Assembly (NCBI GenBank): GCA_902540545.1
Contig: CACBMY010000002.1
Coordinates: forward strand, 1 to 63,746
DNA: 63,746 bases
Reading direction: 5' to 3'
Origin: an uncultured Pelagibacteraceae bacterium
GTDB lineage: Bacteria; Pseudomonadota; Alphaproteobacteria; Pelagibacterales; Pelagibacteraceae
Both the position numbers and the translations under genes were made by a program. Positions within the stretch are counted from its first letter, which is position 1. Every line of letters starts with the position of its first letter. Below, piece by piece: positions 3,524-15,034 of this stretch. The notes below the pieces were generated by a model, which was given only the letters and a program-made list of their open reading frames with translations, made no database searches and was not told the origin of the DNA.

Positions 3524-4497
3524 TTTTTAAATATTTCGAACTGAAAAAGTTAGATACATCAATTTTCAATATTTTTTTATTATATGGGAAAAACACTGGT
3601 TTACAAAATGAGGTAATAAAAAAAAATTTTATAGATCGATATAATTTAGAGGTAGATTCTTATGATGAAAATGAGTTCATAAAGGATTCAGAATTAATTA
3701 TATCTGAGTTGTTAAATAAATCTTTATTCGATAATGAAAAGTTAATTATTATATCTAGAGTAACAGATAAAATTTTGAATGTTATTAAATACGTACTCGA
3801 GAAAAAAGTAAAAGATATAAAAATAATTTTAAAAAGTGGTGTTCTTGAAAAGAAATCAAAGCTTAGAATTTTCTTTGAAAAAGAAAAAAATTTAGCAGTT
3901 ACTGCCTTTTATGAAGATAACGTAAGTGATTTATTGTTATTGATAACTGACTTCTTGAGAAAAAATAATATTAAACTTTCGAGAGAGTCTATTAATTTAC
4001 TAATTCAAAGATCAAACGGCGACAGGGGAAATATTAAAAATGAATTAGAAAAAATTTATAATTATTCTACTACAAATAAAAATATTAACTTTGAAACAGT
4101 TCAAAAATTATCTAACCTAGCGGAGAATTACAGTGTTGGTCTCCTTGCTGATAATTATTTGTTAAAAGATGTAAAAAATACATCTAAAATTCTTAATGAG
4201 AATAATTACTCAAATGATGATTGTATCTTAATATTAAGAACAATATCAAATAAATCTAAAAGATTATTAAATATAATTGAAACTTTAGCAGAAATTAAAA
4301 ATATCGATAAAGTCATATCTAATGTTAGACCACCAATATTTTGGAAAGATAAAGAAAATGTTAAAAAACAAGCAAATTTATGGAAGTCCGAAGATTTAAA
4401 AAAAATATTATATCAGGTAAATGATATAGAAATTTTAATCAAAACGAATCCAATAAATTCCGTCAATATATTGTCAAATTTTATTGTAAGTAATTAG
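3520..4497 (+). CDS. holA: DNA polymerase III subunit delta
   Basis: 325 aa; 'FLLYGKNTGLQNEVIKK' N-terminus and HolA-like C-terminus; syntenic position. Confidence 0.85.
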   Translation: MIFKYFELKKLDTSIFNIFLLYGKNTGLQNEVIKKNFIDRYNLEVDSYDENEFIKDSELIISELLNKSLFDNEKLIIISRVTDKILNVIKYVLEKKVKDIKIILKSGVLEKKSKLRIFFEKEKNLAVTAFYEDNVSDLLLLITDFLRKNNIKLSRESINLLIQRSNGDRGNIKNELEKIYNYSTTNKNINFETVQKLSNLAENYSVGLLADNYLLKDVKNTSKILNENNYSNDDCILILRTISNKSKRLLNIIETLAEIKNIDKVISNVRPPIFWKDKENVKKQANLWKSEDLKKILYQVNDIEILIKTNPINSVNILSNFIVSN

Positions 4498-5345
4498 TAA
4501 TTGTTTTTAATTATATTTATAAGCCTATCTAGTTGGTCCAATCCTTTATACTCAAAAGAAAGAGTGCCTGAGTTATTTTTTTTATTTTTCAAAAATACTC
4601 TCATGCCAATTTTTTCACTTAAATCATTTTCAGTTGATATAGTATTTGCATCTTTGGATTTATAAAATCTACCTTTCTGTGATTTTAGTGATCTTACAAG
4701 ATTTTCTGTTTGTCTTACTGATAGTTTTTTTTTAATAATTTTTTCTGCTAACAATAGAGCATTTTCTAATCCGATAAGAATTTTTGCATGACCTTGAGAG
4801 ATTTTTTCGTTTCTAACCATATCAATAATTTTTTCAGGTAAAGATAATAATCGTAAAGAGTTCGATATATGTGGTCTACTTTTCCCAATAAATTGAGAGA
4901 CTTTATCTTGGTCATATTTAAAATTATCGATTAAATTTTTATAGCTTTCAGCCTCCTCAATAGGATTTAAATCTTTTCTTTGAACATTTTCAATTATTGC
5001 AAGCTCTAATGATTTGAGATTATCAGCTTCAATAACAACTACTGGAACCTCATGTAAACCCGCAGATTGAGCAGCTTGCCATCTTCTTTCTCCAGCAATT
5101 AATTCAAATTTATTGTCTTTGTCGTCAGACTTTCTAACTATCAAGGGTTGAATTATACCTCTCTCTTTTATTGAGTTTGTTAATTCAGTTAAAGCCTCTT
5201 TTTCGAATAATTTTCTTGGTTGATTTTTATTAGGTACTATTGAACTTATAGAAATCTTATCATTTGATACTTTTATATCAGTGTCGCCTAATAATGATGA
5301 CAAACCTCTCCCAAGTCCCTTTTTACTTTTAAAAGGATTTATCAT
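4494..5345 (-). CDS. parB: chromosome partitioning protein ParB
   Basis: 'KKGLGRGLSSLLGD', 'PNKNQPRK', 'ELIAGERRWQAAQSAG', HTH 'QDKVSQFIGKSRPHISNSLRLLSLP'. Confidence 0.97.
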   Translation of the reverse strand: MINPFKSKKGLGRGLSSLLGDTDIKVSNDKISISSIVPNKNQPRKLFEKEALTELTNSIKERGIIQPLIVRKSDDKDNKFELIAGERRWQAAQSAGLHEVPVVVIEADNLKSLELAIIENVQRKDLNPIEEAESYKNLIDNFKYDQDKVSQFIGKSRPHISNSLRLLSLPEKIIDMVRNEKISQGHAKILIGLENALLLAEKIIKKKLSVRQTENLVRSLKSQKGRFYKSKDANTISTENDLSEKIGMRVFLKNKKNNSGTLSFEYKGLDQLDRLINIIKNNY

Positions 5346-6142
5346 GCTGCACTCTCCACTTGTTTATCTTGTTCTAAAAATTCCTCAGTAAACTTAAAAT
5401 AAGCTTTACTACCAGGGCAGATTTTATCATATATTAATACTGGTATTCCATGAGATGGGGCCTCTGACAATCTCACGTTTCTGGGAACAGCAGTAGAGTA
5501 TACTTTTTCCTTGAAATAGTTTCTAGCCTCTATCTCAACTTGTCCTGAAAGCTTATTTCTTTTATCAAACATTGTAAGGAGTATTCCCCTTATCTCTAGT
5601 GAAGGATTTAAATTAGACTTGACCCTTTCAATAGTTTTAATAAGTTGGGTAAGTCCTTCTAAGGCAAAAAATTCTGTTTGAAGTGGTACCACTAGAGCAT
5701 CCGAAGCTACCAATGCCATAATTGTAAGCAAACTTAGGGATGGTGGACAATCAATCAATATATAATCATATGATGGCCCAGAATCATTTAAAATAGCGCT
5801 TAATTCGTCTTTTAATTTGAATGCTCTTCTACTATCTCCAGCTGTTTCTACCTCAAGGCCTGATAAATCCACATTGGATGTTATTAAATGAAGATTTTGA
5901 AAACTTGTTTCTTGTATCACATCAGAAATATCCTTATTTCCATTAAGAACACTGTAAATTGTGTTCTCTGAGTTTGTAATATTTGATAAACCAAGCCCAG
6001 TTGTTGCATTTCCCTGAGGATCAAGATCTATTACTAAAATTTTTTTTCCTTTCATGGATAACCCGGCTGCAAGATTAATTACTGTAGTCGTCTTCCCCAC
6101 ACCTCCTTTTTGATTTATTACTGAAATAATTTTTTTATCCAT
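5342..6142 (-). CDS. parA: chromosome partitioning ATPase ParA
   Basis: Deviant Walker A 'NQKGGVGKTTTVINLA'; 'DLDPQGNATTGLG'. Confidence 0.97.
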   Translation of the reverse strand: MDKKIISVINQKGGVGKTTTVINLAAGLSMKGKKILVIDLDPQGNATTGLGLSNITNSENTIYSVLNGNKDISDVIQETSFQNLHLITSNVDLSGLEVETAGDSRRAFKLKDELSAILNDSGPSYDYILIDCPPSLSLLTIMALVASDALVVPLQTEFFALEGLTQLIKTIERVKSNLNPSLEIRGILLTMFDKRNKLSGQVEIEARNYFKEKVYSTAVPRNVRLSEAPSHGIPVLIYDKICPGSKAYFKFTEEFLEQDKQVESAA

Positions 6143-6216: not shown

Positions 6217-6861
6217 TTAGACATTTTTTTTGCTTAAATTAGAAATTTTAACAATCATAGACTCGTTGTTTGTTAAACTTTTTTTTTCTTCATAATCAAA
6301 TTTCCATGTTTTAAGGGCATCATATAAAATTTTTCTTCCACTTTTACCTAAAAATAAAATAATATATTTAAAATTCTTAAAATTATTTTTTGCAATCTGA
6401 AAAATTATGGGCAATGGTTTGAATGCTCTTGAGATAATTACATCAGTACTCAAATCTCTTTCTTCAAAAATATTTTTTTGATGAATTTCTGAGTTTAAAT
6501 TAAATTTTTTTGTCATTTCTTTTAAGAAAATACTTTTATGATAACTCTTTTCATAAAAAATTAGCTTAAATATTGGGTTTTTTGCTTTCATCAAAATTCC
6601 TAAAACTATACCAGGCAGACCGGCACCAGATCCGAGGTCTGTACAAGTTTTAATATCAATTTTATCAATAAATTCAATTGTTTGCGCACTATCTTCTATA
6701 TGCCTTGAATTTATTGACTTTTCTGTGCTATTGCTAATTAAATTTATGCTCTTATTTTTTAGGATTATTGCTTTTGAATATTCCTCAAGTTCTTTTAATG
6801 TTTCACGTGAAACATTTGCAATTTTTAAACTGTCAATTTTTATAAGGTTCGAATCAATCAA
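6217..6861 (-). CDS. rsmG: 16S rRNA (guanine-527-N7)-methyltransferase RsmG
   Basis: '[28 protein letters not shown]', '[15 protein letters not shown]'. Confidence 0.93.
6799..6814. promoter_or_regulatory. parS centromere-like site TGTTTCACGTGAAACA
   Basis: Perfect 16-bp palindrome identical to consensus parS, inside rsmG (encoding NVSRET), next to parAB. Confidence 0.95.
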
Positions 6862-11941: not shown

Positions 11942-12931
11942 TTAAATACTTTTTTTAATAAGATTATTTAATAACTTTATGTGATCTTCATTATCATTCA
12001 AGCAAGGTATCATATCAAAATTTTCTCCACCAGCCTCCATAAAAGTTTCTTTTCCTTGTATTAGTATTTCTTCCAATGTCTCAACACAGTCAGATGAAAA
12101 TCCAGGACATATTGCTAGGACATTTTTTATCCCTTCTTTTGGCAAATTTTCTAATGTCTTATCTGTATATGGTTGTAACCATTCTTGAGGCCCAAATCTT
12201 GATTGAAAAGTAGTTTTTATTTTAATCTTGTTAAATTTTTCAGATATTAGTCTTGAGGTTTTATGACAATAACAATGATAAGGGTCACCTTTATCAAAAT
12301 ATTTTTTTGGAATACCGTGATAAGAAGCAAGTATTAAGTCCGGTTTCCAAGTTAAATTTTCTATCTTTGTGTTAATAGAATTCACTAAAGCATCGATATA
12401 TAGCGGGTTAGATTCGTAATGAGGTACAATCTTTAGAGAGGGTTGCCATCTCATTTTCATTAATGTCCTATAAACCTCATCACATACTGTGGCTGTAGTT
12501 GCAGCTGCATATTGTGGGTATAAGGGCAGTATAACAAGATTTTCACATCCATCATCGTGTAGCTTTTTAATTCTACTTTTAATGCTTGGATTTCCATATC
12601 TCATAGCAAAATCTATAGTTAAATTTGCATTTGATAACGAGTCAGAAATTTTTTCCGTTTGTTTTTGAGTATAATATAACAACGGGGACATGTTTTCTTC
12701 TTTCATCCAAATCTCTTTGTAAGCTTTTGCCGTTTTGGATGGCCTAAAATTAAGAATAAAGATATTTAAAATTAATTTCCATAAAATAGGATTTACTTCT
12801 ATTACTCTTCTATCAGAAAGAAATTCCTTCAAGTATTTTCTAATGTCAATCCAATTTGTTGAGTCTGGTGTTCCGAGATTAATTATTAAAACACCAGTCT
12901 TTCCAAACTTTATTTTTGGATGGTTTTCCAT
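11942..12931 (-). CDS. hemH: ferrochelatase
   Basis: 'GVLIINLGTPDS', 'ASYHGIPKKYFDKGDPYHCYCHKT', 'GFSSDCVETLEEI'. Confidence 0.96.
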   Translation of the reverse strand: MENHPKIKFGKTGVLIINLGTPDSTNWIDIRKYLKEFLSDRRVIEVNPILWKLILNIFILNFRPSKTAKAYKEIWMKEENMSPLLYYTQKQTEKISDSLSNANLTIDFAMRYGNPSIKSRIKKLHDDGCENLVILPLYPQYAAATTATVCDEVYRTLMKMRWQPSLKIVPHYESNPLYIDALVNSINTKIENLTWKPDLILASYHGIPKKYFDKGDPYHCYCHKTSRLISEKFNKIKIKTTFQSRFGPQEWLQPYTDKTLENLPKEGIKNVLAICPGFSSDCVETLEEILIQGKETFMEAGGENFDMIPCLNDNEDHIKLLNNLIKKSI

Positions 12932-13932
12932 TACTTAAACTCTCTTACAATTTTAACTAATTCGTCTACCATATCAATTTGGGTCTCTGGCAAAATTCCA
13001 TGCCCTAAGTTAAAAACATAAGGATGATCTCTAAAAATTTTTAAATACCTTAATACCTCATATCTAAGTTTTTTTTTATCTGTTAATAATATTTTAGGGT
13101 CCATCCCACCTTGAATCGGTATATCAATATTTTCAATTAACTTTTCTGGTTTCGTATTATAATCTATATTAACCATATCTGGTTTAACGATTTCGCAAAA
13201 TTTTGGATAATCAGTTATTCCTCTTGGAAAACAAACAACTGGCACTCCAAGTTCTTTAGTATAATTTACTAGAGAAACAGTTGGATCATACAAATATTTA
13301 TCAAAATCTTTCTTGATTAAGCCAGCCCAGCTATCAAAAATTTGAATTATAGTTGCACCTGAATTTACTTGGTTTTTAATATGAATTTTTATGAATTTAT
13401 CTAACAACCTCAATAATTCATCGATTAATCCTGGATCATTGTAAAATATTTCTGAAAGTCCATTCTTTGGTGAAATTTTGTTAATCATATAAACAAGTAA
13501 GGTCCAAGGAGCCCCAACAAAACCAATTAAGTCTTTATTTTCCAATTTTTTACTTTTGGTTAAATTTTTTAGAAGTTTATAAATTGGAGATAACCTTTGA
13601 CTAAAAGTTAATTCATTTATACTCGATAGTACGTTTAAATCTATTTCTCCTAAATTTGGGCCAAAATTTTTTTTGAATTCTACTTTTTGTCCAAGACCAT
13701 AAGGAACCATTAAAATATCAGAAAAAATAATTGCTGCATCAAAATTAAACCTTTCAATTGGTTGGAGTGTTATTGTTTCAGAAAGATCAGAATTTAGACA
13801 TAGAGTTATAAAGTTTGTATTATGTTTTCTTATATCTCTAAATTCAGGCAAATATCTCCCTGCTTGTCTCATTAACCATATAGGATTAGTATTTGTATTT
13901 TTATTTACTAAACATTCTTTAATTGGTGTCAT
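12931..13932 (-). CDS. hemE: uroporphyrinogen decarboxylase
   Basis: 'PIWLMRQAGRYLPEFRDIR', 'VPVVCFPRG', 'NLGHGILPETQIDMV'. Confidence 0.97.
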   Translation of the reverse strand: MTPIKECLVNKNTNTNPIWLMRQAGRYLPEFRDIRKHNTNFITLCLNSDLSETITLQPIERFNFDAAIIFSDILMVPYGLGQKVEFKKNFGPNLGEIDLNVLSSINELTFSQRLSPIYKLLKNLTKSKKLENKDLIGFVGAPWTLLVYMINKISPKNGLSEIFYNDPGLIDELLRLLDKFIKIHIKNQVNSGATIIQIFDSWAGLIKKDFDKYLYDPTVSLVNYTKELGVPVVCFPRGITDYPKFCEIVKPDMVNIDYNTKPEKLIENIDIPIQGGMDPKILLTDKKKLRYEVLRYLKIFRDHPYVFNLGHGILPETQIDMVDELVKIVREFK

Positions 13933-14011
13933 TTATAAAAAGATAATTATATCTAGTTTTATTATTAGTATGATTTGTAAATAACGTAAATTACTCAAAT
14001 TCAACACTTTA

Positions 14012-14026
14012 TTAACGTTTTATTAA
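14012..14026. promoter_or_regulatory. CtrA-type binding site TTAA-CGTTTTA-TTAA
   Basis: Exact match to TTAA-N7-TTAA inside the candidate oriC. Confidence 0.4.
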
Positions 14027-14099
14027 AATATAATAATAAAAAGTCCTTTAAATATGGGATTATTTCACCAATTTAATAAATATCTAAATTGTTAATAAG

Positions 14100-14108
14100 T
14101 TATTCACA
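14100..14108 (+). promoter_or_regulatory. DnaA-box-like TTATTCACA
   Basis: One mismatch to TTATCCACA; inside the hemE-PPSR gap. Confidence 0.6.
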
Positions 14109-14212
14109 GTTATTAATATGTTAATTAAGTGATGAAAAAGATAATAAATTACAGCTATTTTATAAATTTAAAAATTTTCTTATTTTATAAATAATTTATA
14201 TACAAGTTATAC

Positions 14213-15034
14213 ATGAAAAATACACATCAAGTTTATTTGATATCAGACTCTACCGGAGAAACTCTTGATAGAATATTTATGGCTTTAAAAGCCCAATTCA
14301 ATAATTTTGATTATGATTTAAACCAATTTTCATTTACGAGAACCGAAAACCAAATCTCTACAATTTTGAATGATGCAAAAAAACAAGAGAGTCCAATAAT
14401 TTTGTATACTGTAGTCAATAGCAAATTAGCAAAATTTTTAGCAGAAGAAGCCAATAAAAAAAAGATACCCTGTTTTGGTGTTTTAGGTGATCTAATTTTA
14501 AATTTTTCGAAGATATTAAACGAAAAAGCAACCCACCAACCGAGTGCACAACATGTTTTAGATGAAGATTATTATAAGAGGATTGAAGCTATACAGTTTA
14601 CGATGAATCACGATGATGGAAATAACACAGAAAACATTTTAGAGTCCGACATAATTTTAGTTGGTGTTAGCAGAACCAGCAAAACGCCTACATCGATATA
14701 TTTGGCAAACAAAGGTTTAAAAACTTCTAATATTCCATTAGTCAATGAGATGAGCATCCCAAAAGATATTATAAAGTCTGATGGTTTATGCGTTGTTGGT
14801 TTAACCACAGAAGCAGAAAGACTTTTCGATATCAGAAGGAATAGACTAAATTCTTTGAAAAAACATGAAGCCTCGGATTATACAAATCTAGAGAAAATTA
14901 GAATTGAAGTCGATCAATCAAAAAAAATATTCAAAAAAAATAAATGGCCAATAATAGACGTAACAAGAAAATCAGTAGAGGAAACTGCAGCTTCAATAAT
15001 AAAAATATTTGAGATACAAAACAAAAATGTTTAA
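14213..15034 (+). CDS. PEP synthase/pyruvate phosphate dikinase regulatory protein (DUF299, kinase/phosphorylase)
   Basis: 'HQVYLISDSTGETLDRIFMALKAQF', 'DIILVGVSRTSKTPTSIYLANKGLKTSNIPLV'. Confidence 0.95.
   Translation: MKNTHQVYLISDSTGETLDRIFMALKAQFNNFDYDLNQFSFTRTENQISTILNDAKKQESPIILYTVVNSKLAKFLAEEANKKKIPCFGVLGDLILNFSKILNEKATHQPSAQHVLDEDYYKRIEAIQFTMNHDDGNNTENILESDIILVGVSRTSKTPTSIYLANKGLKTSNIPLVNEMSIPKDIIKSDGLCVVGLTTEAERLFDIRRNRLNSLKKHEASDYTNLEKIRIEVDQSKKIFKKNKWPIIDVTRKSVEETAASIIKIFEIQNKNV

Follow-up and report, generated by a model that had tools for sequence, protein, structure and literature searches.

Where replication of the SAR11 chromosome begins is a question with practical weight, since SAR11 bacteria rank with the most abundant of the surface ocean and growth there is commonly estimated by comparing read depth between origin and terminus. 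We addressed it using a 63,746-nucleotide stretch of DNA from an uncultured Pelagibacteraceae bacterium (hereafter, the window), in which an initial annotation had placed a candidate origin between hemE and the PPSR gene. A literature search found no paper describing a SAR11 oriC; DoriC may list predictions for cultured strains. As set out below, we consider it very probable (roughly 0.93) that this gap is the chromosomal origin, oriC, with a predicted mode of initiation in which a DnaA-box/trio element opens the DNA toward hemE.

The hemE-PPSR gap and its flanking genes

The annotation had described about 280 bp of very AT-rich, non-coding DNA between two divergent blocks of genes, and this description is borne out. 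The gap spans exactly 280 bp, both of its flanking genes are supported by Pfam matches (Table 1), and its AT content is 85% as compared to 71% for the whole window. All of the genes from parB to hemE are on the minus strand and all of those from PPSR to dnaQ are on the plus strand, an orientation that fits replication forks departing both ways. The nearest named relatives, as judged by PPSR, are Pelagibacteraceae single-cell genomes and MAGs (94% identity), which makes the source organism a Pelagibacter or something very close to it, and the Bac_DnaA_C domain of the source genome's DnaA is intact in Pfam. A search of the gap for structured RNA produced no Rfam match at E ≤ 1, and the accessible part of a study of P. 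ubique intergenic RNAs contains nothing on the hemE-PPSR gap.

Table 1. Coordinates of the candidate origin and associated features in the window.
Feature	Positions	Strand	Basis
Candidate oriC, entire hemE-PPSR intergenic gap	13933-14212		280 bp, 85% AT; four DnaA boxes; gap conserved; skew switch close by in relatives
hemE, left flank	12931-13932	-	Pfam URO-D
PPSR (kinase/pyrophosphorylase, COG1806 family), right flank	14213-15034	+	Pfam Kinase-PPPase
AT-rich stretch, hemE start to triplets	13933-13959		Sequence; putative role from box-trio layout of PMC8287927
DnaA-trio-like triplets TAT TAT TAG TAT	13960-13971	+	Three-base register in relatives
Anchor DnaA box TTATTTACA (reads TGTAAATAA on plus)	13976-13984	-	At most one mismatch to TTATNCACA in 60/67 close relatives
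Two box-like repeats, TTATTAACG / TTATTAAAA, 11-bp spacing	14009-14028	+	Mostly one to three mismatches in relatives
DnaA box TTATTAACA, one mismatch	14090-14098	-	One mismatch in 59/67 close relatives
DnaA box TTATTCACA, exact TTATNCACA	14100-14108	+	At most one mismatch in 54/67 close relatives
Conserved block ATATGTTAATTA / ATGTTAATTA, right half of gap	14117-14128		Almost invariant in 67 relatives
DnaA box TTATATACA, one mismatch	14196-14204	+	One mismatch in 48/67 close relatives
parS centromere site TGTTTCACGTGAAACA, inside rsmG (gidB) reading frame	6799-6814		Perfect match; palindrome; 7.3 kb from gap
parB and parA	4494-6142	-	Pfam ParB domains and ParA-type AAA_31

Conservation of the gap

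We then compared the locus with those of relatives, which were sampled as 20-kb stretches. Wherever hemE and PPSR were both found at a Pelagibacteraceae locus, the gap between them measures 254-289 bp. The same hemE(-)-gap-PPSR(+) arrangement is present in 26/26 loci with both genes across the class, where the gaps measure 312-887 bp, such that the Pelagibacter gap is shorter than every one of the 26. PPSR was not found in the 16 genomes of a sister family that were first searched, and at the 17 loci read from this family a 265-281 bp gap remains between hemE and maf. In this family, which belongs to the same order (L088-L103, L111), maf directly follows the origin gap. Genus g5 presents the converse case: between rho and PPSR there remains a 353-bp gap, which contains a TATTAG-4 nt-TGTTTATAA element as well as three or four boxes (G041, G044). 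The hemE found in this genus (L104, L105, L129, L130) sits within a heme gene cluster elsewhere in the genome and not beside the origin; it shares only about 30% identity with the hemE typical of SAR11, which may reflect replacement or relocation of the gene. Because a similar gap persists both where PPSR is missing and where hemE is no longer adjacent, it is the gap itself, rather than just a shared promoter, that is conserved. Either neighboring gene is dispensable; the gap is not.

DnaA boxes and other sites in the gap

The annotation had credited the gap with few recognizable DnaA boxes, a view that the counts overturn. Four sites in the gap match TTATNCACA with at most one mismatch, as compared to 0.59 in dinucleotide shuffles (P = 0.002), and the box at 14100 is an exact match, for which the probability by chance is 0.013 in the same shuffles. 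Among window intergenic stretches of at least 150 bp, no other holds more than two boxes, and the runner-up has its two in 400 bp. For the complete genome of one relative, G012, 58% was read; in that portion the gap shares the highest box count with two much longer stretches and has the highest box density of 99 stretches. The mean for 38 same-genus gaps is 4.2 boxes versus 0.8 in shuffles.

Alignment of 67 close relatives reveals strong conservation at approximately 13954-14017 and 14085-14128 and a third conserved block at the start of PPSR, while the DNA between these blocks varies freely. The two boxes that the annotation had named, TTATTCACA at 14100-14108 and TGTAAATAA at 13976-13984, are both present where it had placed them. 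The letters of the latter vary among relatives, where it is found as TTATCAACA, TTATCTACA, TTATTAACA, or TTATCCACA, the last of these being a perfect box that is present in some. The two box-like repeats to its right are possible weak DnaA sites, judging by their sequence. Despite its near-invariance, the block at 14117-14128 is a poor fit to a DnaA box, with two mismatches.

A DnaA-trio-like array beside the leftmost box

From left to right, the first conserved block consists of TAT TAT TAG TAT, four bases, TGTAAATAA, and CG. The published sequence rule for the basal unwinding system (BUS) of bacteria calls for a DnaA box with at most two mismatches and, no more than 16 bp away, at least three 3'-NAN-5' triplets (PMC8287927). 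In the window, TTATTTACA has two mismatches to TTATCCACA and is separated by a 4-nt spacer from four triplets. Since box and triplets together agree with this rule, we take 13976-13984 to be the anchor box. Thus, the annotation had the position of this box right, but its description of the box as the weaker of the two does not stand, as the box anchors a conserved DnaA-trio array. By analogy with the published layout, the AT-rich stretch between hemE and the triplets is the probable start of DNA opening.

The three-base register is evident in 34 same-genus genomes, in which the first position is T in 99%, the middle position is A in 86%, and the last position is T or G in 89%, with a constant spacer of 4 nt between triplets and box. 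All four central A residues are kept in 75 of 78 further named loci. Written as three triplets followed by four bases and a box, the pattern has a single occurrence in each of three sequences, namely the window, 777 kb of G012, and 400 kb of G048, and in all three it falls at the gap; in this form it fails to pick up G046 and G043, whose gap was split by the boundaries of the stretches. Loss of the motifs in related genomes was what the annotation had said would count against an origin, and boxes and triplets are conserved alike. Beyond the genus, the register is absent from several gaps, and TAG repeats adjoin box-like sequence in several sister-family gaps. A strict test for four triplets beside a box is passed by 6/26 class-level gaps versus 0.1 in shuffles, and further class-level gaps resemble the box-trio layout by eye, so the element may be ancestral.

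Strand skew and the position of dnaA

Because the source genome is a draft in 48 contigs, strand skew was measured in relatives only. Skew was computed per gene on the coding strand, and the axis was taken as the point where leading- and lagging-strand genes must swap. In G012, the third-position G-C axis and the fourfold A-T axis both fall at 1260-1270 kb, with the gap at 1262 kb and the opposite point at about 590 kb; fourfold-site G-C skew in this genome gives no usable signal at the gap. When four complete genomes are pooled, the fourfold A-T switch maps to -5 kb from the gap (support from -15 to 0 kb) and the third-position G-C switch maps to +10 kb, with a position of exactly 0 disfavored by 4.6 log units. 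A switch at dnaA is rejected in the same pooled set by 24 log units (A-T) and 11 log units (G-C), values that overstate the strength of the result because neighboring genes and related genomes are not independent. The A-T signal comes mostly from G012 and G046, and G048 by itself carries no usable skew signal. In G046, the gap occupies 335453-335736. One 7.5-kb stretch of G012 that seemed low in GC and free of ORFs was discarded, as it contained a masked run of 5000 N.

The check that the annotation had proposed, cumulative GC skew, gives a divided answer. The raw minima of GC skew and purine excess lie 28-33 kb from the gap, to one side or the other, whereas the orientation-corrected switch lies within about 10 kb of it in the four pooled relatives. 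Since gene orientation governs the raw minima, these were not used for location. Together with the conserved motifs of the gap, the corrected switch supports the annotation's reading of the gap as oriC. An origin at the gap places about 63% of genes, and 81% of those within 10 kb of the gap, on the leading strand. The dnaA gene is located on the hemE side of the gap, at a distance of 60-64 kb in seven complete genomes of the genus. The 244-bp gap upstream of dnaA (18% GC) holds only one one-mismatch box.

Sites for segregation and cell-cycle control

In the window, parS lies close to parAB, and its distance from the candidate origin is similar to that in Caulobacter. Four relatives carry parS-like sites with at most one mismatch on the same side of the gap, at distances of 6.9-9.8 kb, and none were found elsewhere in the stretches that were read from relatives.

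CtrA-type sites (TTAA-N7-TTAA) number 0.6-0.7 per gap versus 0.3 expected, and none is kept across the aligned relatives. The one in the window's gap was rejected as a CtrA site, given its overlap with the 11-bp box-like repeats and its lack of conservation in relatives. With fewer than one such site per gap and with Pelagibacter reported to lack ctrA (PMC2877005), control of this gap by CtrA appears unlikely. CtrA sites vary even among accepted hemE/COG1806 origins (PMC1914354). The IHF motif WATCAANNNNTTR shows no excess in the gaps, a result in which a diverged site could be missed. GANTC is a methylation motif tied to the SAR11 cell cycle, and GANTC methylation has been reported in Pelagibacter, with a gradient from ori to ter in Ca. 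P. giovannonii NP1 (PMC9516812). This motif is scarce in the origin gaps, with 0.04 per gap versus 0.21 expected in 78 named loci and 0 versus 0.35 expected in sister-family gaps; its scarcity is suggestive only.

Discussion

From the layout of the gap, we infer the following order of events. DnaA would bind the box at 13976-13984 in double-stranded form and, with assistance from the boxes at 14090-14108 and 14196-14204, build a filament running leftwards, which would engage the TAT/TAG triplets at 13960-13971 as a single strand. The AT-rich DNA would thereby be opened toward hemE, helicases would load at the opened DNA, and forks would depart both ways. Sister origins would then be segregated via parS (6799-6814) and ParAB.

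Any divergent gene pair needs promoters, and AT-rich intergenic DNA is common in this genome, so the gap might be merely a shared regulatory region for hemE and PPSR in which the boxes are due to chance or serve transcription. We regard this as very improbable, given that a gap of similar size persists where maf has taken the place next to it and also between rho and PPSR in the genus whose hemE is in a heme gene cluster elsewhere; the excess of boxes (P = 0.002) and the strand-skew switch mapping to the gap count against it as well. Promoters may well coexist with an origin. Many bacterial origins adjoin dnaA, and the short, low-GC gap upstream of dnaA could be counted in favor of an origin there, with the hemE-PPSR gap as a relic. 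That arrangement is the least probable of all those considered here, in view of the distance of dnaA from the gap in all seven complete genomes, the rejection of a skew switch at dnaA, and the single one-mismatch box found upstream of it.

An alternative that deserves more weight, though we still consider it unlikely, accepts the gap as the origin but holds that the triplets are not functional DnaA-trios and that the other boxes and the AT-richness accomplish opening. The triplets are rich in TAT as compared to a TAG consensus, NAN is easily satisfied in AT-rich DNA, the register breaks down in several gaps beyond the genus, and only 6/26 class-level gaps pass the strict test. On the other hand, the register and its constant spacer hold across 34 genomes, with 75/78 named loci in agreement, TAG repeats lie beside box-like sequence in several sister-family gaps, and the six class-level gaps that pass exceed the 0.1 of the shuffles.

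The hemE/COG1806 origin of Caulobacter has been mapped by experiment and that of Rickettsia has been predicted (PMC1914354), and the annotation's statement that the Caulobacter origin has the same flanking order agrees with that report. Caulobacter crescentus Cori (hemE-CC0001/COG1806) resembles the SAR11 gap in its flanks, divergent order, AT-richness, and cluster of DnaA boxes (PMC1914354). Cori is 404 bp, however, as compared to 280 bp, and it carries one IHF site in addition to five CtrA sites (PMC1914354), neither type of site being clearly conserved in the SAR11 gap; we do not treat the missing IHF site as decisive for class membership. The Rickettsia prowazekii oriC (hemE-RP001) is likewise similar in its flanks and in belonging to a small AT-rich genome, the origin being 82.6% AT (PMC1914354), but its gap is 384 bp, and Rickettsia retains a ctrA that complements Caulobacter, whereas Pelagibacter is reported without one (PMC2877005). 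In the Wolbachia/Ehrlichia/Anaplasma origin (hemE-COG1253), one ancestral neighbor is kept (PMC1914354), a situation also seen in genus g5 and the SAR11 sister family; in SAR11, however, no new partner arrived, the gene next in line having closed up after the neighbor was lost or relocated. The SAR11 gap shares with the BUS of Bacillus subtilis and other bacteria (PMC8287927) a box, a short spacer, and triplets on the expected strand. It differs in that its triplets are mostly TAT rather than TAG and in that Pelagibacter has a single box with a 4-nt spacer. The classification of the SAR11 gap as a short, compact member of the known hemE/COG1806 class of alphaproteobacterial origins is well supported by these sequence comparisons. 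What seems to be added here is a fine map with a box-trio opener, a gap that outlasts either neighbor, and the 60-64 kb offset of dnaA.

We tentatively suggest, at slightly less than even odds, that the SAR11 origin is unusually small for a free-living alphaproteobacterium: a DnaA-centered module, some 280 bp long and kept as a unit, that has few GANTC sites and receives no input from CtrA or IHF. Such a module would comprise one box-trio opener and three or four further boxes, and either neighbor could be lost. If this is true, control of initiation rests on DnaA itself and not on a CtrA/CcrM circuit at the origin.

Some tools, such as GRiD, assign fragments that carry dnaA to the origin (PMC7852909), and dnaA has served as the starting point for aligning SAR11 genomes (PMC12421898). 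In the same-genus genomes compared here, this commonly used proxy sits 60-64 kb away from the candidate origin. A defined 280-bp origin with an opening module would also provide a small target for in vitro study of how a streamlined cell initiates replication without CtrA.
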